DNA from: a bacterium
GTDB taxonomy: Bacteria; Planctomycetota; Planctomycetia; Gemmatales; Gemmataceae
Reading direction: 5' to 3'
DNA: 64,000 bases
NCBI GenBank assembly: GCA_017308215.1
Contig: JAFKFQ010000260.1
Coordinates: forward strand, 1-64,000
Part shown: piece by piece, positions 3,767 to 49,082 of the stretch
Layout: every line of letters begins with the position of its first letter
Position numbering within the stretch: the first letter of the stretch is position 1
Made by a program: the position numbers and the translations under genes
Notes under the pieces: generated by a model
What the model saw: the letters and a program-made list of their open reading frames with translations, nothing else
Told to the model about the DNA's origin: nothing
Databases searched by the model: none

Positions 3767-3847
3767 GGCAACCTCGGTGTCGGTCCGAGCCCGGAGCGTG
3801 GGCAATGTGTTACGCGGACCCGTCGGCGTCGTTCGATGACGCGCGGC

Positions 3848-4816
3848 TCACCCACCCCGTCGCTCGCGCTCCGGGCTCGGACGGATGCAGGCGCGGAGTT
3901 CGGCGTCGAACCGCTCCCAGTCGGGCGCATCCGCGAATGCCTCGACGCGGCTGTCGCGCCGGTACGCGGTGTGGGCGATCGCCGGCTCGCCGGTGCGGGC
4001 GCGGTTGAGCGCGAACCAGTCGTGCGGCGTGCGGAACACGCCCTTCGCCCGCACCAGGCCGGGGAACGACGCGAACAGTGCGACGAGCCGGTCGCGGTCG
4101 AAGACGACCTCGGGCGGGAACACCCAGCCCTTAGCGTCGGGACCGGGGGACGAGGGGGCAGTGGGACCGGGGGACGCCGTCACACCGGCTTCGTCCCCCG
4201 GTCCCACAATCCCCTCGTCCCCCGGCCCCAAATCCAGCCACGCCGCGTCGAGCCGCCCGCGTTCCGTCGCGGCCACGAGCAGTTTCGGCGGGTACAGCGC
4301 GTTCGCCCACGCCTGGAAGTCGGCCACGAGCGCGGGTGGCGCGGCGTCGAGCTTGTTCAGCACCAGCACGTCGGCGAGCTCGACCTGCTCGCGGAAGATC
4401 GGGTTCGCCCGCATCTCGGGCTTGGCGAAGTCGGCCGGGTCGACGAGCCCGAGCGTGGCGCGCACGTCGAGCCGGCCGCGGTAGGTCGCGCGGAGCGTGT
4501 CGAGCAGCCTCGCCGGGTGGCCGAGGCCGGTCGTCTCGATCAGCAGGCGGTCGGGCCGGGCGTCGACCAGCAGGAAGTGGAGCGCGACGCCGAGGTACGG
4601 GGCGGACGCGCAGCAGACGCACCCGCCGCTCACCTCGCGCACCGTCACGCCGTCGGGCGCCCCGCCCTCGATCAGGGCGCCGTCGATGCCGACCGCGCCG
4701 TACTCGTTCACCAGCACCGCCCACCGCGACCCGGCCGCCTTGCGGGCGAGCAGGTCGAGCACCGCGGTCGTCTTCCCCACCCCGAGGAACCCGGTGATGA
4801 GGTTGGTGGGAACCAT
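3848..4816 (-). CDS. CobW/CobW-C family GTPase (zinc metallochaperone-like)
   Basis: 322 residues. Walker A GFLGVGKT at residues 9-16, the metal-binding GCVCC (C66, C68, C69) and the base-recognition NKLD define the CobW/YjiA/ZNG1 family, cytosolic GTPases that deliver metal to client enzymes. The C-terminal CobW_C domain ends with WERFDAELRACI. Between the GTPase and C-terminal domains lies a Gly/Pro/Asp-rich insert, about residues 196-232, produced by nested palindromic DNA. The ATG at 4816 directly precedes the P-loop strand. The gene follows the SurA-like gene on the same strand, separated by an inverted repeat. Client metal or protein is unknown. Confidence 0.88.
   Translation of the reverse strand: MVPTNLITGFLGVGKTTAVLDLLARKAAGSRWAVLVNEYGAVGIDGALIEGGAPDGVTVREVSGGCVCCASAPYLGVALHFLLVDARPDRLLIETTGLGHPARLLDTLRATYRGRLDVRATLGLVDPADFAKPEMRANPIFREQVELADVLVLNKLDAAPPALVADFQAWANALYPPKLLVAATERGRLDAAWLDLGPGDEGIVGPGDEAGVTASPGPTAPSSPGPDAKGWVFPPEVVFDRDRLVALFASFPGLVRAKGVFRTPHDWFALNRARTGEPAIAHTAYRRDSRVEAFADAPDWERFDAELRACIRPSPERERRGG
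4139..4229. repeat. Nested palindromic repeat inside the CobW-family coding sequence
   Basis: The outer arms 4139-4157 and 4211-4229 pair with one mismatch. The inner arms 4161-4175 (GTGGGACCGGGGGAC) and 4193-4207 pair perfectly over 15 bp. All of it is translated in frame as the low-complexity linker of the CobW-family protein. It resembles intragenic palindromic elements known from other bacteria, but the family is not identified. Confidence 0.7.
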
Positions 4817-11701: not shown

Positions 11702-11855
11702 GGCAAATCTCCAAAGGTGAACGGTCGGCCGCGATTGTACCGTCGCCGGACGCACCGGCCGACCATGAAGCCGGACCCGCAAGGACACGGCTCGCTGATC
11801 GCGCCGCCGGCGATCGCGTGCGTACAACACCCCGCACCCACCCGGAGTCTTGCCC

Positions 11856-11987
11856 ATGCAGCTGCGCGGCATCATCCCGCCGGTCGTCACCCCGATGACC
11901 GCCGACCAGGAACTCGACCTCCCCGGCCTCCGCGCCCACATCGACCACATGCTCGCCGCCGGCGTCCACGGCATCTTCGTGCCGTAG
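11856..11987 (+). pseudogene. 5' fragment of a DapA-family (dihydrodipicolinate synthase-like) gene
   Basis: 43 codons: MQLRGIIPPVVTPMTADQEL at the N-terminus, ending LAAGVHGIFVP followed by TAG. This is the first beta-alpha unit of the class I aldolase TIM barrel; intact members continue directly with the conserved GTTGE motif. That continuation is missing, and the sequence changes exactly after the Pro codon. A serine recombinase begins 67 bp downstream, so the gene was most likely split by site-specific integration and its 3' part should lie at the far end of the element, outside this window. Confidence 0.75.
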
Positions 11988-19180: not shown

Positions 19181-20031
19181 ATGACCAACGAAGTGAACAT
19201 CGCCGACATCCAGATCGGCCCGCGGCACCGCAAGGATCTCGGCGACATCGACGGCTTGGCGGCGTCCATCAAGGAGGTCGGCCTCCTTCAGCCGATCGGC
19301 GTGACCCCGGAGAACGTCCTCGTGTTCGGCGAGCGCCGCCTCCGGGCTTGCGGTGAGATCCTCGGGTGGACGGTCATCCCGGCGCGGGTGGTCAACCTGC
19401 GGTCGATCATGGAGGGAGAAGCCGCCGAGAACGGGAGCCGGAAGGATTACACCCCCAGCGAAAAGGTCGCGTTAGTCGATGCGCTCCGCTCCTTCCGCCA
19501 CGGCGGGGACCGGCGCTCGGGCCAAACTCGCACGTGCGAAGTCGAACGCCTCACCGTGGATCAGGCGGCGAAGCGGGTGGGGCTCGGCGGGAAGGACGGC
19601 TACAAGCGAGCGAAAGTCGTTGTCGAGCGGGGCGTCCCGGAACTGGTGGACGCCATGGAACGGGGGAAATCCGGGTGGCCGTCGCCGCCGAGGTCGCCGA
19701 GTTGGAGGCCGAGGAACAGTGCCGAATGCTGAGGGCGAGGGAGTCGCTGACCGTGAAGCAAGTCGCCCGCTACAGGATGCTCAAGGCCAGTGGGCCGACG
19801 ACCCCGGCGCGGCAGGGGTCCGAGAGGCTCACCGCGCCCGAACCCGAAAAGCAGTCCCTCCTGCGCCGGGTGGCCGAGGTCGTCATCCGCCTCCAGTCCG
19901 TTGTCGAGGAGATCGGTGACCTCGAATGGCATAACACCGACACCGCCTCTCTCCGGGAGGCCATCCGCGAGGGGGTCGGCCTGTTTCAGTCCGTGGAGGC
20001 CCTGATCGCGGAAAGGCGGGTGGCGCGATGA
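19181..20031 (+). pseudogene. ParB-like nuclease-domain protein, frameshifted at 19667-19670
   Basis: The first frame starts MTNEVNIADIQIGPRHRKDL and shows the ParB N-terminal pattern: IDGLAASIKEVGLLQPIGVT, then VFGERRLRACGEILGW, then the helix-turn-helix LTVDQAAKRVGLGGKDGYKR. After GAACGGGGGAAA the frame runs into Pro/Arg-rich nonsense and stops at 19732. Shifting frame at that point continues IRVAVAAEVAELEAEEQCRM and RESLTVKQVARYRMLKASG to a stop at 20031. One missing A in the G5A3 run explains everything. The restored protein would be about 284 residues. Its stop overlaps the downstream methyltransferase ATG, a pairing common in phages and islands. The indel may be a sequencing error. Confidence 0.75.
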
Positions 20032-20813
20032 CTGGCATCTACCTCTGTGACAATGTCGAGGGGCTGGGGCAGGTGCCGAGCGACAGTATCCCTCTGACGG
20101 TGACCAGCCCTCCATACGACCGTCTGCGGAGCTACGGGGGGCACGGGTGGGACTTCGAGGCGGTGGCGGCTCACCTCTACCGGGTCACCCGCCCGGGCGG
20201 GGTCGTCTGCTGGCAGGTGCAGGACGCGATCGAGAAGGGCGTTCGGACCATGACGAGTTTCCGACAGGCCCTCCGCTTCACGGAACTCGGGTTCGGACTC
20301 TGGGAGTGCCTCATCTGCGAGACGCGCGACTACAGCAAAAGCTGTCAGCGCCAGTACTACCCGACGTACCAGTACGTGTTCGTGCTCGCCAAGGGGCGGC
20401 CCGCTACGGTGAACGTCCTCGTGGACCGACCGAACATGTACGCGGGGAGGGTCGTGGCCGACCGGCACCGGCGGGGCCGAGACGGGCGGCTGGTGTACGG
20501 GCACTCCCCCCTGCCGATCGCCGATTACGGGAAGCGGGGCACGATCTGGTCGTACCCCGGCGGGGCGAAGACACGCGACCCGGAAGCCCGTAAACACCCG
20601 GCGTTGATGTCCGAGGCACTGGCCCGCGACCTGATCCTCACGTTTTCGACGCCGCTTGACGTAGTGCTCGACCCTTTCGCGGGAGCGGGCACAACAGCCA
20701 AAGTGTCGCTACTTTGTGGACGGAGATGGCTGGGGTTTGAGATCCACGCAGAGTACGTCAAGATGGCCCAAGAACGGCTGCGGGTGGCCCGGCGGGGGTT
20801 GTGGGCGGCCTGA
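20028..20813 (+). CDS. DNA methyltransferase (N4-cytosine/N6-adenine, beta-class motif order)
   Basis: 261 residues. The catalytic motif TSPPYD (26-31) precedes the SAM-binding motif DPFAGAGTT (215-223), the order of beta-class amino-methyltransferases. TSPPY more often marks N4-cytosine or some N6-adenine enzymes; the base is undecided. The small size leaves little room for a large target-recognition domain, so the site is probably short. No restriction nuclease gene adjoins it, so it looks like a solitary or phage-type enzyme, perhaps for protection of the element from host restriction. The ATGA overlap couples it to the ParB-like gene. Confidence 0.85.
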   Translation: MTGIYLCDNVEGLGQVPSDSIPLTVTSPPYDRLRSYGGHGWDFEAVAAHLYRVTRPGGVVCWQVQDAIEKGVRTMTSFRQALRFTELGFGLWECLICETRDYSKSCQRQYYPTYQYVFVLAKGRPATVNVLVDRPNMYAGRVVADRHRRGRDGRLVYGHSPLPIADYGKRGTIWSYPGGAKTRDPEARKHPALMSEALARDLILTFSTPLDVVLDPFAGAGTTAKVSLLCGRRWLGFEIHAEYVKMAQERLRVARRGLWAA

Positions 20814-21517: not shown

Positions 21518-22387
21518 CTATGCCAAGTATTCGTCAGGGAGGAAGTAGCCCTTTTTGGGGACCGAGATGATGTCGATTTTGAGCTTTCTCCTAATCCCCG
21601 CAATGTCCCGGTCGAGCCGCTGTTGTTCTTTGAGGAAGCGGTTCTTCCGCATGTCCCCGCTGCTGATCGTTCGGCCCCCAGCCTCGACGAGTTCGTGCAG
21701 GATGTTGACTACGACTTCGCCCGGATATTGAGTCTTCCCGTCGAGTGTCACGGATGGCGCGTCAATGTCCACGACGAGGCGGGGGCCACGGCGCGGACCA
21801 CGCAGCAGGCGGTCGATCACCCGCTCGGCGAACCGCTCGGCCCAACTCTGAACGGCGTCGAAGGAGAAGACCGCGGCGGTTTCGAGCGACCGGAGACCCG
21901 ACGGCAGCCGGGCCTGCCGCGCCGCCGGCACGGTCCCCGTGTCAAATACCACCTTGGTCTGGACGGATTTGGAAAGGTCGGGGGTGGCCTTCGCAAAACG
22001 GACCAAGGAGGGCAACAAGCCGTGGTAGCCCGGCCCGACATCGGAGCCGATGCCCACGGTTCGATCCTTCCGGCACACCACGGAGGCCCGGTCTGACCAG
22101 TCCCGGAACCGTCTGACTCGTTCGACGTTGCCCCACCAGCGCACGCACGAGCCCCCGCCGGGGGCCGGGTCGAACCAAGGGTCAGGTCGGAGCCGGATGA
22201 TGCCGTCTTGGGTGTCGAAGTCTACCCGCTGCTCCAAGAACTGCCAGCCTGCCGGATGCGGCAGACGCACCCCGGAGTCGCCGAGGATCGTAAGAAGCCC
22301 GAAGCCGCACGGCCCGAGGTCGGCGTCACGGAGTTCGATCAGCTCTTCCTTCAGCCGCTCCAAACGTTTGCTCGACGCTGCGCTCAT
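21518..22387 (-). CDS. Hypothetical protein with C-terminal winged-helix-like domain
   Basis: 289 residues from ATG 22387 (MSAASSKRLERLKEELIELR), an opening coiled-coil-like helix. The C-terminal 60 residues (VVVNILHELVEAGGRTISSG ... DIAGIRRKLKIDIISVPKKG, then YFLPDEYLA) have the layout of a winged helix: a helix pair, a recognition-like helix with basic residues and a beta wing ending in GYFL, as in OmpR-type effector domains. The middle part is unassigned. It diverges from the AAA-ATPase gene and could regulate the replication-like module; that is inference. Confidence 0.6.
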   Translation of the reverse strand: MSAASSKRLERLKEELIELRDADLGPCGFGLLTILGDSGVRLPHPAGWQFLEQRVDFDTQDGIIRLRPDPWFDPAPGGGSCVRWWGNVERVRRFRDWSDRASVVCRKDRTVGIGSDVGPGYHGLLPSLVRFAKATPDLSKSVQTKVVFDTGTVPAARQARLPSGLRSLETAAVFSFDAVQSWAERFAERVIDRLLRGPRRGPRLVVDIDAPSVTLDGKTQYPGEVVVNILHELVEAGGRTISSGDMRKNRFLKEQQRLDRDIAGIRRKLKIDIISVPKKGYFLPDEYLA

Positions 22388-22741
22388 TCGGCTGCCCTCA
22401 CCCTCGCCCGCCCCTGAAGTTGGTCCGCCCTCGTCAACTCCCGCCAGCACCGGAACTCGACCTCCCGCCTTCCACCTGCGGTCATTTTAGACCTCAAAAG
22501 TGTGCCGTCTCGGAATGGAACACCTGTGCCAACTTTCCGCCATAGGCCGGGCCGGAAGTGCCGCGTACAGTTCTTGCCATGGGCACACCGCCCTCGGCGT
22601 CGTCCCCCTTCGTCAGTCGAAGTGGGCGTGGGTCGAGGCACCCGCCGCACCAACTGGGGTACGGGGGCGGTGGGTCCGTCTCACTTTCACTTCGTGAGAA
22701 AGTGAGAACACGAGAAGCACCAAGGAGAAGGAGGACGGGCA
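22388..22741. other. Divergent intergenic region before the replication-like module
   Basis: 354 bp without a convincing gene. It holds the start-proximal sequence of two divergent genes, the hairpin at 22679-22707 and the purine-rich AAGGAGAAGGAGG ribosome-binding site of the AAA ATPase. Confidence 0.5.
22679..22707. repeat. Hairpin with TCTCACTTTC / GAAAGTGAGA arms
   Basis: A 10-bp perfect outer stem, extended inside by CAC/GTG around TTC. It is 35 bp upstream of the AAA ATPase start. A closely related hairpin lies at 27401-27431 just past the last gene of the module. Confidence 0.65.
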
Positions 22742-23683
22742 ATGGACGCCGACCAACAGTACGAGGAGTTGCTCCGTCAGGTGAAGGTCATCAAGGACCG
22801 CGTGCGCGGCGTGGTCCACGAGCAGAGTAACGGCGTTTACATCCACGGAAGGCCCGGCACGTCGAAGACCTACATGGTCCGCTCGACGCTGGAGACGCTC
22901 GCTGTGAATTACTCCTACTCGAACGGCCACCTAACCCCCATCGGCCTGTTCGACCTGATCGCCGAGCACCAAGACCGCGTCATCGTGCTGGACGACGTTT
23001 CGGCGATTTTCAACCAACCGGTCGCGCTGCAACTCCTGCTGGCGGCCCTCGGCAACCCGCACAACGGGTCGAAGGCCCGGCTAGTCAGGTACAAGACGGC
23101 CAAGGAAACACGGGTCGTCCCGTTCACGGGCGGCCTGATCTGCATCTCAAACCTGCCGCTCGACGGACACCACCACGAGGTTTTGGCGGCGTTGAAGGAC
23201 CGAGCCTTCGTCGTCAACTACGAGCCGACCGACGAGCAGATCCATGCCATGATCGGCAAACTCGCCGGCGAAGGGGTCGGCGGGGTGTCGCCGGCCAAGG
23301 CCCGCATGGTCGCTATCTTCCTCCTCGACGAGTGCAAGCTGCGGGGCGTCCGGCCCTCCGTGCGGCTGTTCGTGGACAAGGCCCTGAAGGACTTCAAGCT
23401 GTTCGACGCCGGGCAAAGCGAGACGCACTGGCGCGACCTCGTGATCTCGAACCTCGAACAGCAGGTCGTCCAGTTGCGGCACCCGACCAAGGACTTGTCG
23501 CGGGAGGAGCAGGTCGAGGCCGAGCGGCGGATCGTCCTCGACATCGCACTCAGCTTCCCGTCGAGGGCCGAGCGGGTCCAGCAGTGGCACACCCGCACGG
23601 GCAAAAGCCAAGCGGCCTTCTACCGCCGGCTGGCGGAACTCAAGGTTGCCGGTCGCTTACCGGGGGCGAACGGCGCGGCGTAG
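22742..23683 (+). CDS. AAA-type P-loop ATPase of the replication-like module
   Basis: 313 residues. Walker A GRPGTSKT (36-43), Walker B VIVLDD (80-85), and a sensor-like LICISNLPLDG. The C-terminal part (EERVQQWHTRTGKSQAAFYR-like helix, RRLAELKVAGRLPG) looks like an HTH. The pattern resembles plasmid or phage ATPases that load or remodel replication complexes rather than chaperones. It is the first gene of a same-strand set ending with the polymerase and DUF5131 genes, but a strong terminator follows it, so the later genes likely have their own promoter. The specific role is unproven. Confidence 0.7.
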   Translation: MDADQQYEELLRQVKVIKDRVRGVVHEQSNGVYIHGRPGTSKTYMVRSTLETLAVNYSYSNGHLTPIGLFDLIAEHQDRVIVLDDVSAIFNQPVALQLLLAALGNPHNGSKARLVRYKTAKETRVVPFTGGLICISNLPLDGHHHEVLAALKDRAFVVNYEPTDEQIHAMIGKLAGEGVGGVSPAKARMVAIFLLDECKLRGVRPSVRLFVDKALKDFKLFDAGQSETHWRDLVISNLEQQVVQLRHPTKDLSREEQVEAERRIVLDIALSFPSRAERVQQWHTRTGKSQAAFYRRLAELKVAGRLPGANGAA

Positions 23684-23780
23684 GCCGGCTCATGCCTGCT
23701 GTGCTCGGGCACCGATCCGTCCGCCGGGACGACCTTCCAGATGTCAGCCAACGTCCCGGGGACAGCCGGTAGTCCTTCCG

Positions 23781-23814
23781 CCACGTCGGGCGGGTTAATA
23801 CCCGCCCGACGTGG
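23781..23814 (+). terminator. Strong hairpin terminator candidate after the AAA ATPase gene
   Basis: A perfect 14-bp stem, CCACGTCGGGCGGG and its complement, with loop TTAATA. The downstream side has A-runs rather than T-runs, so it could also terminate minus-strand transcription, or act as an origin or regulatory dyad. Confidence 0.6.
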
Positions 23815-24077
23815 CAACAAAAAACTCCTCGTCAGAATCGTTAATAGCTCGGGTGGCGGCGGGCCATGAGGAAATGAACACACCACAGCACTATGACCTC
23901 GTTTTCGCGGCTACCGTCGGCCAGCGCAGGCACCGCGCTGGTGTCCGCCGATTGCCCCGGTCTGACCGACCTTCTTCCCCAACCGGACACCGCGCCGCGT
24001 GATGGACGCCAGAAAAATCTGTCGTCATAACAAGAAAATGATTCTTTGCTGCTTACCTACGGGTGAAGGAGGTAGGT
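23815..24077. other. Intergenic region, possible promoter or origin
   Basis: Lower GC than surroundings, with AT-rich patches near 23816-23850 and 24010-24050. A 42-codon open frame from ATG 23875 is present but has no protein-like features. In a replication module such a region could hold an origin or promoter; no iterons were seen. Confidence 0.35.
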
Positions 24078-24299
24078 ATGGAAAACATCTACTCGACCGG
24101 GCAGGTGGCCCGGCTATTGGGGGTACGACCCCACCAACTCGAATACGCCCATGCGTCACAGGCCCTCGCCGAGCCGGCGTTCCGGTTCCTCGGGAAGCGG
24201 GTGTACTGCGCCGCCGACGTGCGGCGGGTGGCGGCGCACTTCCGCCTGACCCTCGACGACGGCCTCAGCGTGGTGGCCGCCGGACCGGAGGGCCAATGA
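24078..24299 (+). CDS. Small MerR/excisionase-type HTH protein
   Basis: 73 residues: MENIYSTGQVARLLGVRPHQ, a classical MerR-like helix-turn-helix, then RFLGKRVYCAADVRRVAAHF, the typical wing plus second helix that reads a DNA site. GAAGGAGG lies just upstream of ATG 24078. Its stop overlaps the next ATG (ATGA). Likely a DNA-binding regulator or directionality factor for the module. Confidence 0.8.
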   Translation: MENIYSTGQVARLLGVRPHQLEYAHASQALAEPAFRFLGKRVYCAADVRRVAAHFRLTLDDGLSVVAAGPEGQ

Positions 24300-24796
24300 C
24301 GTTCAAGTACGAGTACCTGACGCTCACGCAGGTCGGCGCGGTCTTCGGGACGACCAGCCATCAGGTCGGGCGCTGGCTGACCGAGATCGGCCTGCGGTAC
24401 GAGAGCAAGGGTGGCAAGAAGCCGAGCAGGCACGCCTACGCCGGGGGTTTCGTCAAGGACGTGCCGAGCCGCAATCAGGGGTACTGCTGGGCGTGGCACG
24501 CGGAGAAGACGGTGAAGGCGATCGAGGATGCGGGCCACAAGGTCGCCATCCACCCCGGCCACGAACTCCTCGCCCCGTGTCGGCTGAACGGCGCTTTCGC
24601 GTGCAGACCGAACTCGCAGTTCGGCTACGAGGTCGTCAACGGGGACGGTACGGTGGCCGTCTATGTGACCGGCGAAGCGAACGCCCAGTTCGTGACAAGG
24701 CTGCTGAACCTCGCCGATCAACGCGGCGTCGTCGGGCGACTGCTCGGCGCCGGCGAGGAGAGACTGGCCGTACCTGTTACCGGAGGGGAGGGGTGA
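24296..24796 (+). CDS. Hypothetical protein with N-terminal HTH
   Basis: 166 residues. The N-terminus YLTLTQVGAVFGTTSHQVGR is an HTH-like segment, followed by WLTEIGLRYESKGGKKPSR. The central part includes YCWAWHAEKTVKAIEDAGHK. The protein is translationally coupled to the preceding HTH gene and ends 4 nt before the polymerase start. No further domain recognised; a DNA-binding accessory protein for replication is possible. Confidence 0.6.
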   Translation: MTFKYEYLTLTQVGAVFGTTSHQVGRWLTEIGLRYESKGGKKPSRHAYAGGFVKDVPSRNQGYCWAWHAEKTVKAIEDAGHKVAIHPGHELLAPCRLNGAFACRPNSQFGYEVVNGDGTVAVYVTGEANAQFVTRLLNLADQRGVVGRLLGAGEERLAVPVTGGEG

Positions 24797-24800
24797 TTCC

Positions 24801-26270
24801 GTGTGCCAGTCGAAGCCCACCGGCGGACGGCGACCGGCCCGCCCTCGACCGCCGACCCCGACGCACGTGTACGTCCCCGACACGTTCGACCAGCACGTCC
24901 ACCTGCCGGGCCACCTCCACCGCCACGCCGACTGCGCCCGGTACTTCCTGCACCGGGTCGTCTGGGGCCGCGTCCAGCGGCGGCTGACCCTCGACCAGTA
25001 CGTGCCGGTCAAGTTCGACTACCTGCGGTCCGTCATCCCCGACCGCGTTGTCAAGCCGCTGAAGCTGGCCCTGCTCGACGCCGGCGTGGTGGAGTGCGAC
25101 GGCCAGTACGTCGAGGGCGAGAAGGCACTGGGCTACCGGCTGCGCCCGCCGCACAGCGCGGCCCGGATCGTCCGCACCCGCCTGAGCGACGGGGCGACCG
25201 CCGACAAGGTGCGGGCGAACCGGCGGGCCGAGTTCAAGCGGATTCGGCTGGATGTACACCGTCATCTGCTGGGTCAGTACCGCCGGCTGGAGATCGACCT
25301 GCCGCTGGCCCTCCACCTGCTCGAAGGCGACCCGGACTTCGAGGTCAACAAGATCCCCCCGCAGCAGATCGCCGAGAGGGACTGGTCGTTCTCCGTGTGC
25401 CGGTACGGGCGGGTTCATACCGACCTGACCCGGTGCCCAAGGGCGGTGCGCCCCGCGCTCCGGGTGGACGGCCTACCGCTGATCGAGATCGACGTGGCTA
25501 ATAGCCAGCCGTTGTTCTTGGCGCTCTTGCTTATCAACCACCGGCGGCAGGGTAATAAGACGTTCGGGTACGTCACCTTTCCCGAGAAGCGGACCAACCC
25601 CTACTCCAAGATCGACGAGATCGTGAGCCGTACCATCATCCACTTCTCCCAAAGAGAAGAGAACACAATCACCCCACTTCCCCCACTGTCCATTACGACT
25701 CGCATGGGATGCGATGAAGAGGAGAAATGCCTTGAAAAACCGGTACTTGTGGCAAGAGACAATGACACGGACACGAGCAGAGCCTATCAGGACATCTTGA
25801 AGCAGGACGAGATATGCTTCATACAATTGTGCGAGAATGGCGGGCTGTACGAGGACTTCATGGACCGGCTGGAACTGCCCGTTCGGATGTGGGTGAAGGC
25901 GCAGTTCTTCGAGGTCATCTACGGGGACAACCGCAGCCGATCTCCCCTGAAGGCCGACTTCGCCGAGGTCTTCCCGAACGTCGCCGAGGTGGTGCGGGTC
26001 CACAAGCGCAAGGACCACGGCTTCCTGCCCCGGCTGATGCAGAATATCGAGGCCAACTTCGTCATCAACACCGTCTGCCGCCGGCTCATGAAAGAACTGC
26101 CCGAGGCCCCGGTGCTGACGATCCACGACTGCGTACTCACCACGCCGCCCTACGAGGACGCCATCGCCGGCGTCATGCGGGAGGAGTTCGCGCGGCTGGG
26201 ACTGCACCCCACGTTCCACATCAAGCGGCACGGGGGCACACCCCAGCCCGAGCAGCGAGGTCAATCATGA
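24801..26270 (+). CDS. Divergent family-A DNA polymerase-like protein (transposon/virus type, TV-Pol-like)
   Basis: 489 residues from a GTG with GGAGGGGAGGGG about 8 nt upstream. The polymerase core is recognisable: GRVHTDLTRCPRAVRPAL (203-220), motif A LIEIDVANSQP with catalytic D231 and NSQP 234-237, a motif-B-like VKAQFFEVIYG (365-375), and motif C LTIHDCV with D443. This set is the signature of the TV-Pol branch of family-A polymerases and T7-like RNA polymerases described from transposon-like elements and phages. No 3'-5' exonuclease domain is visible. An insert around residues 283-335 has lower GC. It probably replicates the element; whether the template use is DNA or RNA is unknown. 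Confidence 0.75.
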   Translation: MCQSKPTGGRRPARPRPPTPTHVYVPDTFDQHVHLPGHLHRHADCARYFLHRVVWGRVQRRLTLDQYVPVKFDYLRSVIPDRVVKPLKLALLDAGVVECDGQYVEGEKALGYRLRPPHSAARIVRTRLSDGATADKVRANRRAEFKRIRLDVHRHLLGQYRRLEIDLPLALHLLEGDPDFEVNKIPPQQIAERDWSFSVCRYGRVHTDLTRCPRAVRPALRVDGLPLIEIDVANSQPLFLALLLINHRRQGNKTFGYVTFPEKRTNPYSKIDEIVSRTIIHFSQREENTITPLPPLSITTRMGCDEEEKCLEKPVLVARDNDTDTSRAYQDILKQDEICFIQLCENGGLYEDFMDRLELPVRMWVKAQFFEVIYGDNRSRSPLKADFAEVFPNVAEVVRVHKRKDHGFLPRLMQNIEANFVINTVCRRLMKELPEAPVLTIHDCVLTTPPYEDAIAGVMREEFARLGLHPTFHIKRHGGTPQPEQRGQS

Positions 26271-27376
26271 GCCTGACCACCAAGATCCAGTGGTGCGACT
26301 CCACGGTGAACCCGACGATGGGGTGCGAGGGCTGCGAGCTCTGGACCCCGAGGGTGAAGAAGTGCTACGCGGGGATGCTCCACACCCGATTCGGCGGGGT
26401 GACGAAGGGGTACTCGCCGCGGTTCGAGGAGTTGACCTTCTGGCCGGGGCGGATGGCCGAGACGGCGGGGTGGCCGGACCTCACCGGGACCAAGCGGAAG
26501 GACAAGCCGTGGCTCGACGGCTTGCCCCGGTTGGTCTTCGTTTCGGACATGTCGGACGCCCTCTCGGCGGCGGTCCCGTTCGACTTTCTGGAGGAGCAGG
26601 TCGTCCGCACAGCGACCTCGGCGGACGGCCAGCGGCACCAGTGGCTCTGGCTGACCAAGCGGCCCGAGAGGATGGCCGAACTCGGTGCCGTTTTGAAAGC
26701 CAAGAACATCGCGTGGCCCGACAACCTGTGGGCCGGTACGAGCATCACAACGCAGGCGACCACCGCGCGGATCAAGAACCTCCTCCGCACCGGGGGCTCC
26801 GAGACGATCCGGTTCCTGTCCGTGGAACCCCAGCAGGGGCCGGTTGACCTGTCACCGTGGCTCCCGGACCTCGACTGGGTCATCCAAGGCGGCGAGTCAG
26901 GGCGCGGCGCGCGGCAGTTCCAACTCCCGTGGGCGCTCGACATGATCCGGCAGTGCCGGGAGGCCGGGGTGCCGTACTTCCTCAAGCAACTCGGGAGCGT
27001 GGTCTTCTCCGGGGGCCGCCGGCTCTTCTTCAAGGACAACCACGCGGGCGACTGGTCCGAATGGCCGACGGAGATCCGCGTGCGGCAGATGCCCCACACC
27101 GGTCCGGCTGGCGGCCCCGGCGTGGGCGACCCCGCCGGGGCGGTCGCCGCGGCCCCGGCGCCTGTAGGCCCGCGAGTGCCCCTCGTGGTGATCGAGCCCC
27201 CGAGCAACCGGCGGGAAGCCGCCCTCAAGGCGTGGGAGACCCGCAGGCGGAAGGAGCAGGCGAAGAAGCGGGCCGAGGCGGCGCGGAAGGCGTGGGAGAC
27301 CCGAAGAGACAACGACCGAAAGAGGACGCGGAGTGAGGCGGCTAAACGGGCGTGGAAGACCCGCCGAGGGCAGTGA
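26267..27376 (+). CDS. DUF5131 (phage Gp37/Gp68-type) protein with basic C-terminal repeats
   Basis: 369 residues, start ATG 26267 overlapping the polymerase stop. The N-terminus KIQWCDSTVNPTMGCEGCEL followed by KKCYAG is the DUF5131 hallmark, with a Cys cluster reminiscent of radical-SAM enzymes; WLWLTKRPERM and the later IQGGESGRGARQF are also typical. From about residue 315 three basic repeats of the form A-KAWETRR follow, likely nucleic-acid binding. Family members occur in phages and mobile elements; their reaction is not established. It closes the 22.7-27.4 kb module. Confidence 0.85.
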   Translation: MSLTTKIQWCDSTVNPTMGCEGCELWTPRVKKCYAGMLHTRFGGVTKGYSPRFEELTFWPGRMAETAGWPDLTGTKRKDKPWLDGLPRLVFVSDMSDALSAAVPFDFLEEQVVRTATSADGQRHQWLWLTKRPERMAELGAVLKAKNIAWPDNLWAGTSITTQATTARIKNLLRTGGSETIRFLSVEPQQGPVDLSPWLPDLDWVIQGGESGRGARQFQLPWALDMIRQCREAGVPYFLKQLGSVVFSGGRRLFFKDNHAGDWSEWPTEIRVRQMPHTGPAGGPGVGDPAGAVAAAPAPVGPRVPLVVIEPPSNRREAALKAWETRRRKEQAKKRAEAARKAWETRRDNDRKRTRSEAAKRAWKTRRGQ

Positions 27377-27400
27377 CCTGCCGTCCCACGGCTTCTCACT

Positions 27401-27431
27401 TTCTCACTTTCTCGCCGATGAGAAGTGAGAA
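27401..27431. repeat. Hairpin related to the one at 22679
   Basis: TTCTCACTTTCTC pairs with GAGAAGTGAGAA (one bulge) around GCCGAT. It sits between the convergent DUF5131 and HNH-repeat genes, so it may also work as a bidirectional terminator. A further TTCTCACT copy precedes it at 27393. Confidence 0.6.
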
Positions 27432-27446
27432 CTCTGGGCAATCACG

Positions 27447-28417
27447 TCAGCGGCCTCGCAGTCCACGCGAAGGCGTCAGACTCCCCGCCGCGGCGCGGGC
27501 CGCGTCCCACGACCCGAAGAACTGGCGGGCCTGCTTGATACCGGCCAGACCCAGAGCCGCGACCGCCCGGAGGTTGAGCGGCTGGTCCTCGGCCTTCAGC
27601 CACCGGATCTCCGCGAGCACCTTGTCCTTCGTCCAGTCGAGCCGTTTTTTGATGCCCGGGTAGGGCGCGCCGGTCACCGCCTCGACGAACTCGGCCCACC
27701 CCGTCCCCACGTACTTGTGGACGAAATGCCGAATGTCGCGGGGCGCGTCACGGGACAGGAGGGACTCCTTGGCGGCGGCCCGCCAACGAACCCAGTCTTC
27801 CGCGCTCGGGCGGTCCCACGCGCAACTTGGCATCTTGTGGTCGTCGGGGTCCAAGCCCGCGGCCTGAAGAGCCTTGGCCCAACTCCGGGGGGAACATCTT
27901 CGTGGCGGCGTTGTGGAGGGCGGGGTGCTGCTGCTCGACGCTCTTGGCGGTCGAGGGGGACGCCCTCGACCGCCAGCTCCTTGATCCGCTCGACCACCCT
28001 GTCACGGGTCCAGCGCCGGACGCCGGTGACCTGCTCGTAGTTGAGCCCCGCCGCCGCGGCGGCATTCGGCCACCCGCCGAACAGTCGCCGACCGACCTCG
28101 TACAGCCAGACGGGCACCTGCTTGCCGCGGAGGCTCTTCCCGGCCCGGTGCCGCCGCCGGATCTCGGCCACGACCGACTCGGGCGTCCGGTGCTGGCCGC
28201 GCTGCTCCCAGAACTCGTCCTTGCCCTCGCTAATCTTCCGCCGCGACTCTCCGCACATGGAGTAGGCGAGGTCGAACTCGGCCATGTAGTCGAGGATCGG
28301 GTGGTCGTCCTCGAAGTGGTGGTTCATTCGGAGGTGAAAGACGGTGATCGCCCGGAACCGCTTCCGACACAATTTGCAGATCACGTGAGTCGTCGGAGGG
28401 CGGTGCTCTCGGGCCAT
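27447..28417 (-). pseudogene. Zinc-finger plus HNH-repeat protein, broken by two single-base insertions
   Basis: The ATG at 28417 opens with MAREHRPPTTHVICKLCRKR, a C2H2/C2-H-type zinc finger ending FHLRMNHH. Three repeats of the homing-endonuclease-associated type follow: LFGGWPNAAAAAGL, FPRSWAKALQAAGLDP and FFGSWDAARAAAG, each after a W..E.V..I helix. The second repeat is readable only with two frame changes: an extra C near 27966 (GACCGCC) and one in the C6 run near 27898-27903. Restored length would be about 323 residues. No HNH nuclease core is visible, so the protein probably binds DNA. Either a true pseudogene or sequence errors. Confidence 0.7.
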
Positions 28418-28493
28418 GATCGAGGCTCCTTTCTCCACCCAGAGGCGGGTGTGCCGTTCCCTCAGCGGCACGTTGCCTTGGAATGCCAGAAGC

Positions 28494-29467: not shown

Positions 29468-31555
29468 TCAACTCGCCACCACACGTCTCGGCTCGGCCAG
29501 AATCGCCCTCACTGCTCCCGCGTCGTTGAACCGGGCGCAGAACACTTCGGCGGCGAAGTGCGGCGGCAGGCACTCGGAGAACTTCATGCCCTCGATGGCG
29601 TCATCGGCGGGGACCGGTTCGATCCGGTCAGCGGTGAGACTTCCGATCAACTCTTCGACCTCGTTCAGCTTCAAGGAAGTTGAGAAGCGGAGCGACAGGT
29701 TGTCCACTCGCACTTCGGCCTCGGGTCGCAAGTGGTCTGCCAGCAGGGTATTCGCCACCCCACCGCCGAACGTCCACCAGCGGACCTCCCCGCCGGGGTG
29801 CAGCACGAGGCTCGTCGTGTCCGCTGACGCCCACGGGTACTCCGTGCGGATCTCGTTGATCTGGGCGGTCGCCCGCTGCGACCAGTCCGGCTGGTCGGCG
29901 TCGCCGGCAACGAGGCGGCGGATTCTCTGGCAGACCCGGTAGCTCAGGAACTGCCCCTCCCCCAGCCAGCGGGACCGGCCCCGCTCTTCGGCGGGCTCGA
30001 CGTGGGCGATCCGGCGCTTCCAGTCCAAGTGCTTTGTTTTCCAACTGCGACCGGCGAGGACGATGACCGGCGGCCCCTCGTCCCGCTTGTAGAATGTGGA
30101 CTCGTGGACGGACCCGAGTTCCTTCTGTCCGGCCATCACCCGGAACAGCGGCGGCGAGGTGAACACCGACAACAGCTCCATGAAATTCTTGCGACCGTAC
30201 CTCGCCTCGCCCTCAGGGGCGAAGGAGAGCACGCCGTCGTCGGACCACAGCACGCCGGAACTCAGCATGAAGTCCACGAGGTCCGCGACCGCGCTCCGGT
30301 CCGTCGCGGCGAAGCCGGGGACGGTCGCCACCCAGTCGAACCACTCGCTCCGTCCCACCCCCCGCTCTTGTAGGACCAGCGCCATCAACTGCTGGGCGAG
30401 GATGTGGTACGGCTTGGGCGGGGCCGCGACCGGCTCGACGAACCCGTCCTGCCACAAGTCGATCAGCGCCGCCGCGCGCAGGAGGCCCTCATCGGTCGTG
30501 GCGAGGAACGTGCAGTTCGACGCGGTGCCACTTCGCCGGCCCGTGCGGCCCATACGTTGCAGGAACGACGAAACCGTGGGCGGGGCGTCGATCTGGATCA
30601 CCCGGTCGAGGTCGCCCACGTCGAGCCCCAGTTCGAGGGAACTGGTGGCGACGATCACGCAGTTCTGCCGCTCGGAGAACGCCCGCTCGGCGCGGCGGCG
30701 CTCCTCCAGCCCCAGCGAACTGTGCGACACGAATGTTTCCACTCCGTCCTGCCGCAGCAGCATCGACAGTTGCTCGACCCGCGACCGGCTGTCGCAGAAC
30801 ACGAGGCGCTTCTGGCCGGGGTGGAGGAGGCGGATGACCTTGGCGGCGTTGGGCAGCGAGGCGACGTAGTCGAGTTGGACATCCGGGCGGTTGCGGGCGG
30901 ACGGCTCGGGCCGGACGACCCGCTTCTCCCGCGTCGAACCGGACGACAGCCAGTCCAGCATCTCGCCGGGGTTGCCGACCGTCGCCGACAGGCCGATTCG
31001 CTGGATGTCCCGGTCGGCGAAGCGCCGGACGCGGGCCAGCACGGACAGCAGGTGCCAGCCCCGGTCGTCCCCGGCGAAGGCGTGCAGCTCGTCGATGACG
31101 ACCGCGCGGACGTTCTGGAAAAATCGCCGGTGGTCGATCTTTGTCGAGACGAGCAGGACTTCGAGCGACTCGGGCGTCGTCAGCAGGCAGTCGGGCGGTT
31201 CGGCCATCATCCGCCGCTTGTCGCCCTGCGCCGTATCGCCGTGCCAGCACGCCGCGCCCCGCCCAACGAGCCGGAAGTACCGCCGCAGCCGCTCCTCCTG
31301 ATTGTTGAGCAGCGCGCGGATCGGGCTCACGTACAGGACGCTGAGGCCGGTCCACCCTTCGGTGAGCATCTGCGAGATGACCGGGAAGAACGCCGCCTCG
31401 GTCTTGCCGCCGGCGGTCGGGGCGAGGACGACGAGGTTGGCCCCGGCCAGAAACCCCTCGATGGACAGGCTCTGCACCGGTCGCAACTCGCCCCAGCCGA
31501 GGGAGTTGACGACGTGGTGCTGCAGGGCCGGGTGCAGGCGGTCGAAGGTGCTCAC
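29468..31555 (-). CDS. brxHI: BREX type 2 DEAD/DEAH-box helicase BrxHI
   Basis: 695 residues, Lhr-like superfamily 2 helicase. Walker A APTAGGKT (45-52), DELH box (155-158), IGLSATVGNP motif III, and motif VI QRMGRTGRRSG. The GTG start overlaps the brxD stop (GTGA), which makes it the last gene of the Pgl/BREX-2 operon in the standard order. In BREX-2 loci this helicase accompanies BrxD; its exact step in phage exclusion is not known. Cytoplasmic, nucleic-acid dependent ATPase by family. Confidence 0.9.
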   Translation of the reverse strand: MSTFDRLHPALQHHVVNSLGWGELRPVQSLSIEGFLAGANLVVLAPTAGGKTEAAFFPVISQMLTEGWTGLSVLYVSPIRALLNNQEERLRRYFRLVGRGAACWHGDTAQGDKRRMMAEPPDCLLTTPESLEVLLVSTKIDHRRFFQNVRAVVIDELHAFAGDDRGWHLLSVLARVRRFADRDIQRIGLSATVGNPGEMLDWLSSGSTREKRVVRPEPSARNRPDVQLDYVASLPNAAKVIRLLHPGQKRLVFCDSRSRVEQLSMLLRQDGVETFVSHSSLGLEERRRAERAFSERQNCVIVATSSLELGLDVGDLDRVIQIDAPPTVSSFLQRMGRTGRRSGTASNCTFLATTDEGLLRAAALIDLWQDGFVEPVAAPPKPYHILAQQLMALVLQERGVGRSEWFDWVATVPGFAATDRSAVADLVDFMLSSGVLWSDDGVLSFAPEGEARYGRKNFMELLSVFTSPPLFRVMAGQKELGSVHESTFYKRDEGPPVIVLAGRSWKTKHLDWKRRIAHVEPAEERGRSRWLGEGQFLSYRVCQRIRRLVAGDADQPDWSQRATAQINEIRTEYPWASADTTSLVLHPGGEVRWWTFGGGVANTLLADHLRPEAEVRVDNLSLRFSTSLKLNEVEELIGSLTADRIEPVPADDAIEGMKFSECLPPHFAAEVFCARFNDAGAVRAILAEPRRVVAS

Positions 31556-32868
31556 GGGTCGAGCTCGATGTCGTCCACGGAGGCGGCCTGCGCCTCACGC
31601 TCCACCGCGGTCAGTTCGCCAGCGGCCACGGTCAACTGGTAGTGCCGGGTCGGGTCGAAGTCGGCGAACTGGTCGATCCGGTCCAGCACGTCGGCGACCA
31701 GCTTCTTCAGGAACAACCGCGGGGCGATCCCGACTTTGCCGCCCAACTTTCCGGCAACCGACCGGGCCAGCGCCTCAATGTAGGCGTCGTCGGCCCGGCC
31801 CCGGACCCGCTCGGGCGACGAGCAGTCGGTGACGAACAGGTCGCGGACCTTGACGCCGACCTCCAGCAGCCGGGCGTGGTCGAACGGCGGCAGGCGAAGC
31901 TGCACGGCCCTCGGGTTGTCGAACCGGGCGTCGGTCTGGAAGTCCACATGCAGTCGCTGGGCGAGCGGCTCCAGCCGCTGCACCCCCTGCGGCCCGTCGA
32001 AGAACGCCGGTGTGCCGGTGATGAGCAGGCACAGGTTCGGGAACCGCCCGCCGTCGATGTCGTCGATCAGCTGCCGCAGGGCGTTGAGCCCCTTCTCCCG
32101 CACGTCTCCCCGGACGCGCTGGAGCGTCTCGATCTCGTCGAGGACGAGGACCAGCCCGGAGTAGCCCGAGTCTTTCAGGATCAGCAGCAGCCCCCGGAGG
32201 AAGCTGAGGGCGGCGAAGTGGTCCACGTCTCCTTTGACCCCTGCGACCCGTTTGACCCCCGCCGCCACGTGCGGCTGGCCGGCGAGCCACCCGGCGAGGC
32301 CCTCGGCGGTGGCGTGGTCGTCCTGCCGCTGGGCCGTCCGGTACGCCCGCAGGGCGGCGGCGAACTGCGGCGTCGCGCGGGTGATCTCGACGAGCCGCTG
32401 CTCCAGCAGGTCGTCGGCCCGGCGCGCCAGCCCCGCCGCGTCGGACGGATCGACGGTGCCCTCGGCGAGCACGTCCTCCTCAAGGGCGTAGAACCAGCCG
32501 TCGATCACCGAGCGGAACGCGCCGAGGAAGCAGTCGGCGGTGGACAACTGCTCCGTCGCGCGGCGGTACACCGTCTCCAGCCGGTGCAGCGGCGTCTCCG
32601 CCTCGGAGATCTGGACCTCGGCGGTGGCGAACCCCTTCTTCTTTGCGTGTTCCTGCACCCACCGCCCGAAGAACGTCTTGCCGCAGCCGTAGTCGCCCCT
32701 CACGGCCTTGAACACGGAACTGCCTTGAGCCACGTCAGCCAGTTCCGCCGCCATCGCGGGCTCGAAGCGGCTCAAGCCCACGGCGAAGAAGTCCAGCCCG
32801 CGCTGGGGGACGGTCCCCTTTCGCAGTGCGGCGATAATTTCACGGCGGCGTTCCGGGCTGATGTCCAT
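31552..32868 (-). CDS. brxD: BREX type 2 ATP-binding protein BrxD
   Basis: 438 residues. Walker A RGDYGCGKT (57-65), Walker B LVLVLDEIETL near 200, and the downstream LCLLITGTPAFFDG sensor strand. The opening ISPERRREIIAALRKGTVPQ is typical of the BrxD family. It lies 4 nt after pglZ on the same strand and overlaps brxHI. It probably forms an ATPase module with BrxHI that acts on phage DNA; this is inferred from conserved gene pairing. Confidence 0.9.
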   Translation of the reverse strand: MDISPERRREIIAALRKGTVPQRGLDFFAVGLSRFEPAMAAELADVAQGSSVFKAVRGDYGCGKTFFGRWVQEHAKKKGFATAEVQISEAETPLHRLETVYRRATEQLSTADCFLGAFRSVIDGWFYALEEDVLAEGTVDPSDAAGLARRADDLLEQRLVEITRATPQFAAALRAYRTAQRQDDHATAEGLAGWLAGQPHVAAGVKRVAGVKGDVDHFAALSFLRGLLLILKDSGYSGLVLVLDEIETLQRVRGDVREKGLNALRQLIDDIDGGRFPNLCLLITGTPAFFDGPQGVQRLEPLAQRLHVDFQTDARFDNPRAVQLRLPPFDHARLLEVGVKVRDLFVTDCSSPERVRGRADDAYIEALARSVAGKLGGKVGIAPRLFLKKLVADVLDRIDQFADFDPTRHYQLTVAAGELTAVEREAQAASVDDIELDP

Positions 32869-32872
32869 CGGC

Positions 32873-35572
32873 CTATTCCAAGTCGAACTGCCGTTTCAGT
32901 TTCGCCACGTTGAGCTCGATCCGGTTCTCGTTCCGGCTCAGCGTTAGGATCTCGTACCCGTCCACGTTCAGCAACCGCTGGATGCGGGCGATCAGCCCGT
33001 CCAGCCGGGCGGCGGCAACGTCGGCGGCCTTGGCGAAGGCGGTCGGGGTCATGATGCCGCCGCTGCCGTCTAACGCTTCGAGGCACCTCCGCACCACGTC
33101 ATCATCTGGGGCGTGGCGACGGACCAACTCCTTCTGGGCCTTGTACCCGCCCGAAGCCAACAGTACGCCGACCCAGCCGGCTGAGACCCCGGTCTTGGCC
33201 GGCGCGGGCCGCGCGGGTACGGATGGCTCCGCCTCGTCGCCCATGTTGTCGAAGAGGTTGGCCGGCCCCTTGGGCAGGGTCACACGGACGGGCGGTTCCA
33301 CGACCACGGCGGCAGCGGTGGGGGCCGGCGACCACCACTCGGGCTTCGGGTACGCGCACGTGTACAACCCGGAGTACGCGCTGCTCTTGTCCGTCAGGAG
33401 GACCAACGGGCAGACCATCTCCTGCGGCGTCACCCCGCCGTGGTAGCCGTTCTGCGGACGACCGTGGTGGACCGCCTCCGCCCACTGGGCGACCACGCCC
33501 CGACCGCCGTTTTCGTCGCGGACCCGGCCCCCGGTGATGAGGATCTCGTCATGCCGGACCTCACCCTTGGGCACCCGCCAGCGGCTCCCCTCCTCCGAGG
33601 ACGACCCGGCGGCCTCGGGGCGGTGCCAAACGTGCCCGTGGTCGCTGGCGAGAACCACCACCCGGCCCGAGTCGCGGGCGAGTTTGAGCAGCGCCCCGAG
33701 GGGGCTGATCCGGTTGATCGACCAGACCATCGGCATCTGGTCGCCCTTGCTCAGAAAGTCGTCGATGGCGTTGACTACGACGCCGACGACGCGGGTCTTG
33801 GGCTCAAGGATGGCGGCCTTGAGGTCGTCGCCCACGGCCCCGCGGGTTCCGTCGCTGACCCCCTTTTTGTGGAAGAGGAGCGGGGGATATCGTTTGTCAC
33901 AGCACTGCTTCAGCGCCGGGTGGGCCTCGAAGTTCCGCACCTCGACCGAGGCATCGCCATGCTCCAACCTGCCGGACAGGAGGCTCGCGCGGGAGACGCG
34001 GGTCACGCTGGGGATCGCGGCGATGACCGGCGGCGGGGGTGAAGACGATTCGTCGGGGGTGGCCTCGAACCAGTGGTCCCGCCGGATGTCATCCAGCAAC
34101 TCGTGGCACACCGCCCAGCTCATCCCGTCGAGGACGATCAGGAGCACCCGGTTGTCGGCCCCGGCGACCGTGGCAACCACCTGCGTCAGCACATCCTCGG
34201 CGCCGTGGATGTCCTTGGCCGTCGAGCCCACCGCCGTCCAGTCCGCCAGCGACCGGGCGAAGGCGTGGTTGAACTCGTGTCGCCGCGCGTGTGCCGCCCG
34301 ATCGAGCCGCTGGTAGGCCGTCGAGAGTGCGGGTACGTCCTCCCCGCGGCAGACGGCCTCCCGCGCCCAATCGACGAAGGCCAGTTCCTTGCGGTACACG
34401 CTCACCAGTTCGGCGAACGAGGTGGCCGGTGGTGCGGGCTGGGCCAGCCAGCGGACGAGCCGCAGGGCCATCTCGGTGCGGGACAACTGCTCCCCCCGCC
34501 GGCCCAACTTGGAGATACGGTGTGCGGCGATCTCGCGTTGGAGGCGCTCGCACCGCCCGGTGGCCGCCTCGCCGGGCGTGTCGAGAGCCACCTCGATCTG
34601 CGTCCCAAACCGCTCCAGCCGCTGCTCGTACCCCAGCATCGTGAGGCCGGACCGGTAGGCGTGGTCGGCGCAGCGGAACTGGCGCAGCAACTCGTCGGCC
34701 CGATCGAGGTGCTTCCCCGCGATGCGGGGGTCATCCCTCCGGTCCAGATCGGCGGTGGCGTCGGCGGCGACCCGGCCCAAAGCCCGGCCCACCCCCTGCG
34801 AGATCGGCTTGTGGCGGTGGTACTGTTCCATCCGGGCGGCGGCGGCGTCCAGCGTCTTGTCGTTGCCGCCGAAGACCACCTGACAGGCGACGGCGAGGGC
34901 GAGGGCGTCGGCCCCGGCCCCGGCGTCCACGAACCGCAGGATCGAGTCCGCGGCATCGCCGAGGCTGCTCGTCAGCCGCTGCCGCAGACTGGCCCGAAGT
35001 TCCTCGGCTGCGCCGAGGTAGCGCGCCGGCCCCGCCTTCGAGGACGCCCACAGCAGGAGGGCGACGAGATCCGGCTCACTCTCCCCCATGTCGAAGACGT
35101 GGCGGCTGACCGCCCGCCACACCGTCCCGGCGTCCAGAATCCCCGCCGACACGGGCGGGTAGCCGTCGGGCGGAGCGTACTCCATGAGGGCCTGAGCGAG
35201 GGCCGGGTCGCAGACGGCGCGGTCGAGTTCCTTCGCCTTGAACAGGGCGCACAGGCTGGCCCAGTGATCGACCGGGAACAACCGGCAGCGGGCCAGTCGC
35301 GCGACGACATCGTTGCCCAGATCGCCCTGCTGCAACTTGGTCAACAGCACGATCCGGCCCCCACCGCTCTGGGCGGACGCCAGTGCCTGCCGCACTTGGA
35401 GCACCGTGTCGGCTCGCACCACGCGGGCCGTACCGAAGTCGAATTCGACCTCGTCCGGGGCGGCCCATCCGGGCGTCACGTGCAGGCCCACGGCGGGGGC
35501 GTCGTCGTCCCGCTGCCACTTGTCCTCCACCAGCGACCGGAGTTGCTGGGGGCTCAGCGTGCCGACACTCAT
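32873..35572 (-). CDS. pglZ: BREX alkaline-phosphatase-superfamily protein PglZ
   Basis: 899 residues. The phosphatase core contains RVLLIVLDGMSWAVCHEL (Asp near 480) and VVVLASDHGHVWH (DHGH near 644), the two metal-binding segments of PglZ. The N-terminal 400 residues are helical and the C-terminus ends with a winged-helix-like domain. The ATG at 35572 overlaps the pglY stop (ATGA); the upstream in-frame Met is 8 codons into pglY and was not chosen. PglZ is one of the two genes shared by all BREX types and is needed for phage exclusion. Its biochemical substrate is unsettled. Confidence 0.93.
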   Translation of the reverse strand: MSVGTLSPQQLRSLVEDKWQRDDDAPAVGLHVTPGWAAPDEVEFDFGTARVVRADTVLQVRQALASAQSGGGRIVLLTKLQQGDLGNDVVARLARCRLFPVDHWASLCALFKAKELDRAVCDPALAQALMEYAPPDGYPPVSAGILDAGTVWRAVSRHVFDMGESEPDLVALLLWASSKAGPARYLGAAEELRASLRQRLTSSLGDAADSILRFVDAGAGADALALAVACQVVFGGNDKTLDAAAARMEQYHRHKPISQGVGRALGRVAADATADLDRRDDPRIAGKHLDRADELLRQFRCADHAYRSGLTMLGYEQRLERFGTQIEVALDTPGEAATGRCERLQREIAAHRISKLGRRGEQLSRTEMALRLVRWLAQPAPPATSFAELVSVYRKELAFVDWAREAVCRGEDVPALSTAYQRLDRAAHARRHEFNHAFARSLADWTAVGSTAKDIHGAEDVLTQVVATVAGADNRVLLIVLDGMSWAVCHELLDDIRRDHWFEATPDESSSPPPPVIAAIPSVTRVSRASLLSGRLEHGDASVEVRNFEAHPALKQCCDKRYPPLLFHKKGVSDGTRGAVGDDLKAAILEPKTRVVGVVVNAIDDFLSKGDQMPMVWSINRISPLGALLKLARDSGRVVVLASDHGHVWHRPEAAGSSSEEGSRWRVPKGEVRHDEILITGGRVRDENGGRGVVAQWAEAVHHGRPQNGYHGGVTPQEMVCPLVLLTDKSSAYSGLYTCAYPKPEWWSPAPTAAAVVVEPPVRVTLPKGPANLFDNMGDEAEPSVPARPAPAKTGVSAGWVGVLLASGGYKAQKELVRRHAPDDDVVRRCLEALDGSGGIMTPTAFAKAADVAAARLDGLIARIQRLLNVDGYEILTLSRNENRIELNVAKLKRQFDLE

Positions 35573-39261: not shown

Positions 39262-39263
39262 GA

Positions 39264-42905: not shown

Positions 42906-42907
42906 GT

Positions 42908-49062: not shown

Positions 49063-49082
49063 GCACCGACACCGGAGCGGAC

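Follow-up and report, generated by a model that had tools for sequence, protein, structure and literature searches.

In 2008, a role as primases of mobile elements was predicted for TV-Pols, a group of family-A polymerases (PMC2579912). According to the 2020 paper on SCCmec, the enzyme of this cassette was the only TV-Pol characterised biochemically. The enzyme, CCPol, makes primers together with the protein MP, and the cassette is moved by a large serine recombinase (PMC7581432, PMC10061031). Cch2 of the same cassette acts as a helicase and uses its C-terminal domain to bind three short direct repeats beside its own gene (PMC7581432). Here we analysed a five-gene module with a TV-Pol-like polymerase in a planctomycete of the family Gemmataceae. 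The stretch studied, called the window, comprises positions 1–64,000 of contig JAFKFQ010000260.1 (also labelled C623), and coordinates are window positions. The module encodes an AAA+ ATPase, the small proteins H1 and H2, the polymerase and a DUF5131 protein, and a cluster of 8-bp repeats (iterons) stands at each of its ends (Table 1). We propose that the five genes and the two clusters form the replication module of an island and resemble the SCCmec replicon; the probability of this reading is roughly 0.6.

The module shares with the SCCmec 'pattern 2' operon of Staphylococcus (CCPol, MP, Cch2; ccrC) a TV-Pol, a neighbouring small-protein gene, a large serine recombinase and variable cargo, as well as an AAA+ ATPase and, linked with it, short direct and inverted repeats (PMC7581432, PMC10061031). 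The parts themselves differ. The ATPase has 313 residues and matches no D5/Cch model, and the iterons are 8-bp GTGAGAAA units at both module ends, whereas the SCCmec units are AAGTG. H1 and H2 stand in the place of MP, and we do not claim H2, which is helix-turn-helix (HTH)-like at its N-terminus, as an MP homologue or an OB fold. DUF5131, ParB and a methylase are added. Since the insertion lies in a DHDPS-family gene of Planctomycetes and not in rlmH, and the recombinase is not called Ccr, we did not file the module as an SCC element. By analogy, we propose that it works like the SCCmec replicon, on the same plan with different parts. As in the SCC and SaPI replicons, the ATPase gene adjoins short iterons.

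The locus also has the catalytic residues, the size, the lack of a nuclease domain and the serine-recombinase mobile context of the TV-Pol elements described by Iyer, Abhiman and Aravind in 2008, and Gemmata is already among the TV-Pol carriers listed there (PMC2579912). The neighbourhoods reported in that work contain D5 helicases, resolvases or integrases and RNaseH-fold transposases; the present ATPase with iterons and DUF5131 is not mentioned in the available parts of the paper. Of the neighbours typical for a TV-Pol (a D5-type helicase, a recombinase or a transposase), our island carries the large serine recombinase. The SaPI Rep/ori system and satellite P4 are comparable in that each pairs a primase with an initiator ATPase whose dedicated DNA-binding domain recognises short repeats. 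The repeat sites of P4, ori and crr, are several kb apart and resemble the two clusters found here. The SaPI and P4 primases are of the DnaG or AEP type, unlike the enzyme of the module, and no homology is claimed.

The module and its island

The module had been described in an earlier note, made from the DNA sequence alone, as five same-strand genes, four of them with overlapping or near-overlapping ends. We confirmed this layout: all five genes lie on the forward strand within 22742–27376, and none of the reading frames contains an internal stop. The H1 and H2 genes share 4 bp, the polymerase and DUF5131 genes likewise, and 4 bp separate H2 from the polymerase gene. Tight coupling is limited to these four genes because a gap of 394 bp separates the ATPase gene from H1. 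No T run follows the inverted repeat located in this gap, and an Rfam scan of 11.5–30 kb, the inverted repeat included, found no family. The module borders drawn in the earlier note coincide with an inverted repeat pair of the GTGAGAAA type (15 nt, 100% identity, 4,684 bp apart). Exact copies of the 13-mer TTCTCACTTTCTC occur only at the module borders in the whole 9-Mb assembly.

Table 1. Features of the module, the iteron clusters and the surrounding island
Feature	Position	Strand	Description or evidence
AAA+ ATPase	22742-23683	+	313 aa
H1, MerR-like small HTH protein	24078-24299	+	73 aa
H2, HTH-like N-terminus	24296-24796	+	166 aa
TV-Pol-like family-A polymerase	24801-26270	+	489 aa
DUF5131 three-Cys protein	26267-27376	+	369 aa
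Left iteron cluster (candidate site)	22679-22717		8-bp-period GTGAGAAA units and an inverted copy; ~25 bp upstream of the ATPase start codon
Right iteron cluster	27391-27432		hairpin-forming, TTCTCACTTTCTCACTTTCTCG..GAGAAGTGAGAA; 3' of DUF5131
Perfect 16-nt inverted repeat, 4-nt loop	23780-23815		ATPase-H1 gap; repeat search
attL core GTCCACGGCATCTTCGTG	11964-11981		at the truncated 5' end of the chromosomal DHDPS-family gene; alignment to G479
attR, second GTCCACGGCATCTTCGTG copy	contig C623:80393, beyond the window		alignment to G479
Large serine recombinase, presumed island integrase/excisionase	12054-13889	+	611 aa; Pfam Resolvase 7e-13, Recombinase 2.6e-11
ParB-N domain protein	19181-19732	+	Pfam ParB_N 2e-8
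N6/N4 DNA methyltransferase	20028-20813	+	Pfam N6_N4_Mtase 1.2e-28
BREX type 2 (BrxHI, BrxD, PglZ, PglY, DUF7008 methylase, PglW), near-complete	29468-47143	-	Pfam/NCBIfam/PADLOC

To locate the island, we compared the contig with a complete genome of the same genus (G479, locus L117; L, G and C are our labels for loci, genomes and contigs). In G479 the DHDPS-family gene (Pfam match 6e-77) follows topA and is uninterrupted. In our contig it is split: its 5' end aligns with 11821–11980 and the rest with 80287–81183. Because GTCCACGGCATCTTCGTG is common to both junctions, at 11964 and 80393, the island is 68,429 bp long. The serine recombinase gene is placed just inside attL, and at the right junction a diverged replacement 5' end keeps the DHDPS-family gene open. 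Since both boundaries and the uninterrupted gene of G479 place the module inside, it is one part of a 68.4-kb site-specific integrative island, which as a whole is the predicted mobile unit, and not a free unit.

The ATPase and the 8-bp iterons

The AAA ATPase called in the earlier note is borne out by its motifs. An alignment of 22 sequences contains Walker A (G36..K42), Walker B (D84-D85), sensor-1 (N137), R154 and R208, and the C-terminus is HTH-like, with TGKSQAAFYRR. The Pfam matches are weak and limited to generic AAA models. The protein also matches phrog_1250, a phage family of unknown function (1.7e-13). The profile of the family gave weak and mixed matches in the PDB (Cdc48, ORC5, Cdc6, UvrB), for which reason we assigned no AAA clade. 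The family is present in 27 of the 95 Gemmataceae genomes searched. The plasmid collection gave no match to it, and its phage matches were weak, mainly to T4-sized phages. In other planctomycete loci (L025, L060-L066) a second subfamily adjoins ArdC genes, for the most part lacking clear period-8 arrays.

Period-8 arrays are strongly enriched beside the ATPase genes. With a threshold of 13 matches out of 16 at period 8, arrays were found in 12 of 72 ATPase flanks and in 2 of 1200 control tiles drawn from the same loci (p 3.6e-14), one of the two positive tiles being the right-hand cluster of the window itself. In a second set, 18 loci fetched after the idea had been formed, 2 of the 36 flanks carried arrays (p 0.005). 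The enrichment was clear for period 8 only, with no comparable excess at other periods. The unit of the array varies: GTGAGAAA arrays stand beside the ATPase in L115, L106, L136 and L111, for example, GTGTCAAA arrays in L101, L102, L103, L109 and L100, and TTTGCGGA arrays in L105 and L107, while L056 has an TTTTCCAG array. In L029 the gene order is serine recombinase, ATPase, TV-Pol, and a GTGAGAAA hairpin follows immediately 3' of the polymerase gene (8829-8873). The layout of the right cluster of the window is repeated at this place and 3' of the ATPase gene in L136.

The C-terminal helix of the ATPase (TGKSxxxxYRR) changes together with the array. Helices of the type QAA[FW]YRR are paired with GTGAGAAA, [SE]RA[FL]YRR with GTGTCAAA, and [ML]DS[FY]YRR with TTTGCGGA. 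The covariation gave a Mantel p of 0.009 over 19 loci, which rises to 0.052 once divergence of the ATPase domain is controlled. Because the arrays occur with the ATPase regardless of the presence of H1, H2 or the polymerase, and because the helix varies with the array sequence, these data support, without proving, that the ATPase is the iteron binder. In L143 a more distant relative of the ATPase (1353–2099) is flanked on each side by TTTTAGAC-type repeats, which are oppositely oriented; this suggests that the habit of flanking repeats is not confined to the close family.

The left cluster is a candidate initiator-binding site, origin or operator. It lies about 25 bp upstream of the ATPase start codon, the right cluster forms a terminator-like hairpin 3' of DUF5131, and MerR-like proteins bind inverted repeats. 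All this would suit operators bound by H1 or the ATPase for transcription control, with no origin here and the polymerase serving as a repair or tolerance enzyme of the island. However, most of the array-bearing loci have no H1, and in L106, L109, L115 and L136 the arrays also lie downstream of the ATPase gene, where a promoter is not needed. We consider control by operators unlikely, although it survives best among the alternatives.

The TV-Pol-like polymerase

The TV-Pol-like identity claimed in the earlier note held up, with all active-site residues present. Its three polymerase motifs (GRVHTDLT, LIEIDVANSQP, LTIHDC) are conserved in the alignment of 12 sequences by which residue conservation was judged. 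Of the palm aspartates, D443 is invariant and D231 nearly so; H442-D443 is invariant or nearly invariant. The template-binding arginine R204, in GRVHT of the beta-hairpin before motif A, is nearly invariant, and the RxxxK of the fingers (R362..K366) is invariant. Residues of the R204, D231/D443 and R362/K366 types are those that define TV-Pol in Iyer et al. (PMC2579912).

The earlier note had suggested comparing a structural model of the 489-residue protein with solved polymerases. The AF2 model (pLDDT 71) is partly disordered; residues 256–326 form a low-confidence stretch that is poorly conserved among relatives. Family-A polymerases came first in a Foldseek search (E 3.7e-5). The best PDB matches were M. 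smegmatis Pol I, KlenTaq and mitochondrial RNA polymerase (E to 3.7e-5, probability 1.00), and all 14 matches with E < 0.001 were family-A DNA polymerases or mitochondrial RNA polymerase. Since the global TM-scores are low (0.2–0.33), the fold call rests on the list of PDB matches and the motifs and not on superposition alone. No fused nuclease was found in the protein with Pfam, NCBIfam or PADLOC. The polymerase profile found no match in Microcystis phage Ma-LMM01, a published TV-Pol anchor, where the motifs of MAP_030 are similar by eye only.

Homologues of the polymerase occur in genomes of Gemmataceae and other planctomycetes, on one Hymenobacter plasmid, in huge-phage genomes and in IMG/VR contigs. 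Scans of large collections with the polymerase or the ATPase returned few relatives; most came from whole-genome searches.

Genes that recur beside the ATPase

A search for the same five-gene set in other genomes had also been suggested. The set was not found again, while pairs and triples of its genes recur, so that the lack of co-occurrence named as refuting in the earlier note holds for the full set and not for its subsets. The ATPase and the polymerase are together in the window and L029, the polymerase and DUF5131 in the window and L021, and the ATPase, H1 and H2 in the window, L056 and L098. The slot beside the ATPase is occupied by different predicted replication enzymes, which are swapped between loci: a TV-Pol in the window and L029, a Prim-Pol in L116 (3.4e-18) and a Toprim protein in L113. 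A DnaB helicase lies farther from the ATPase in L101, and D5-like fragments lie near it in L058. By eye, a 635-residue protein 3' of H2 in L098 and a 683-residue protein in L055 looked AEP-like; neither matched a replication family in any library, and this identity is not claimed.

H1 homologues lie between the ATPase and H2 in L056 and L098, and H2 homologues directly 3' of H1. The earlier note had read both as HTH proteins. For H1 this agrees with a MerR_1 match just below the Pfam cut-off (3.5e-4); H2 is HTH-like at its N-terminus, with no match in any library scanned. H2 is a candidate small partner of the polymerase.

The DUF5131 assignment of the earlier note is firm (PF07505, 3.4e-48; 164.7 bits against a cut-off of 28.9). 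The protein has three cysteines and lysine/arginine-rich C-terminal repeats. In NCBIfam it weakly resembles radical SAM mobile pair protein A, and this resemblance, together with the three cysteines, hints at a radical-SAM-like enzyme. DUF5131 is found 115 bp from the ATPase gene in L100 (G482:C1028), adjoining it in L099 (G436:C152), within about 1.2 kb in L104 (G427:C203) and near a distant ATPase relative in G410:C223. In L064 the two are fused in a single open reading frame (2856–4808), with a ParB-like gene and a tyrosine integrase alongside. About five ATPase–DUF5131 pairs within 5 kb were observed, the window included, against roughly 0.05 expected by a rough pooled estimate. The association is real.

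DUF5131 matches the PADLOC candidate models PDC-M41B and PDC-M30B, and BREX type 2 and Zac-like genes are nearby. Such surroundings could mean that the module, or the ATPase with DUF5131, is a system of anti-phage defence or host conflict in a defence island, where the polymerase acts in the immune response. Yet the ATPase and the polymerase match no PADLOC defence model, and integrases, primases and iterons repeatedly accompany the ATPase family. A defence function is therefore improbable, and we rank it behind operator control.

Least plausible of all is a nested transposon-like element with the clusters as terminal inverted repeats: the perfect 15-nt repeats are unique in the genome and enclose exactly the five genes, but both supposed ends are themselves arrays of iterons, no transposase lies inside, the flanking bases show no target duplication, the L029 clusters stand at the 3' end of the ATPase gene and after the polymerase gene and not around the pair, and terminal repeats were rejected because like 8-bp arrays adjoin one or both flanks of the ATPase genes in islands elsewhere. 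Thus, of the self-replicating unit or nested element proposed in the earlier note, the context (iterons, swapped primases) retains the replication role, and the nested self-contained element is not supported.

Proposed mechanism

The genes, the catalytic residues, the match to the family-A fold, the island boundaries and the linkage of iterons with the ATPase can be read from the sequence. In the replication module that we propose, the C-terminal HTH of the AAA+ protein would most likely read the 8-bp GTGAGAAA iterons, where the protein would open or unwind the DNA, and the repeat clusters would act as the origin. On the strand thus exposed, TV-Pol would then synthesise primers or short DNA; H2 may be its small partner, and H1 is probably a regulator. 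The host replicase would finish the copying, and the excised circle would thereby rise in copy number before it reintegrates or is transferred.

Several observations weigh against this reading. The complete five-gene set was not recovered elsewhere in a polymerase search of 392 phylum-wide and 95 same-family genomes. A TV-Pol adjoins this ATPase family in two loci only, the window and L029, and most TV-Pols of the polymerase's family have no such ATPase alongside. D5-type helicase models gave no match to the ATPase, and with no clade assigned its helicase activity is a guess. The single-sequence AF2 model of H2 is uninformative (pLDDT 37.7). A strong array is present at about a quarter of the ATPase loci (13 of 54), the position of the left cluster also fits an operator, and the Mantel value weakens under control for domain divergence.

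More broadly, the ATPases may be an undescribed family of iteron-reading initiators of planctomycete islands, in which a short C-terminal helix sets the 8-bp unit, the downstream enzyme for synthesis can be exchanged (TV-Pol, AEP Prim-Pol, Toprim or others) and DUF5131 is a frequent partner or fused domain. We put this generalisation at somewhat below an even chance. The apparent match between helix and iteron provides a specificity rule that is testable over dozens of natural variants. For DUF5131, widespread and of unknown function, adjacency and one fusion tie it to an initiator-like ATPase and give a functional lead. The locus represents a second, distant TV-Pol system in which the polymerase is intact and candidates exist for the small partner, the initiator and the origin sequences, and the primase prediction for TV-Pols thereby becomes testable. 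It also points to possible self-copying of a large defence island that carries BREX, a matter of relevance to the spread of such islands.

Neighbouring genes and cargo

The ParB of the window shares 63% identity with a ParB-like protein encoded next to the ATPase in L055, and a homologue of the methyltransferase sits between the ATPase and H1 in L056. ParB/methyltransferase fusions adjoin the ATPase in L098 and L104. Because L098 carries both such a fusion and a serine recombinase like that of the window, ParB and the methylase probably belong to a wider core of the island.

The gene at 21518–22387 (-), divergent from the ATPase gene, encodes a protein weakly similar to the one encoded directly 3' of TV-Pol in L021. 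On the other side of the module, two reading frames (27447–28471, -) overlap in different frames and are possibly a single frameshifted gene; the first has a weak match to an HNH/homing-endonuclease-associated repeat. The BREX type 2 genes are cargo of the island and lie outside the proposed replication module. Beside them, three genes at 47737–54658 (+) have weak-to-moderate PADLOC matches to ZacA, ZacB and ZacC, and ArdC-like and RuvB-like genes are located at the right of the island (61451–63593).

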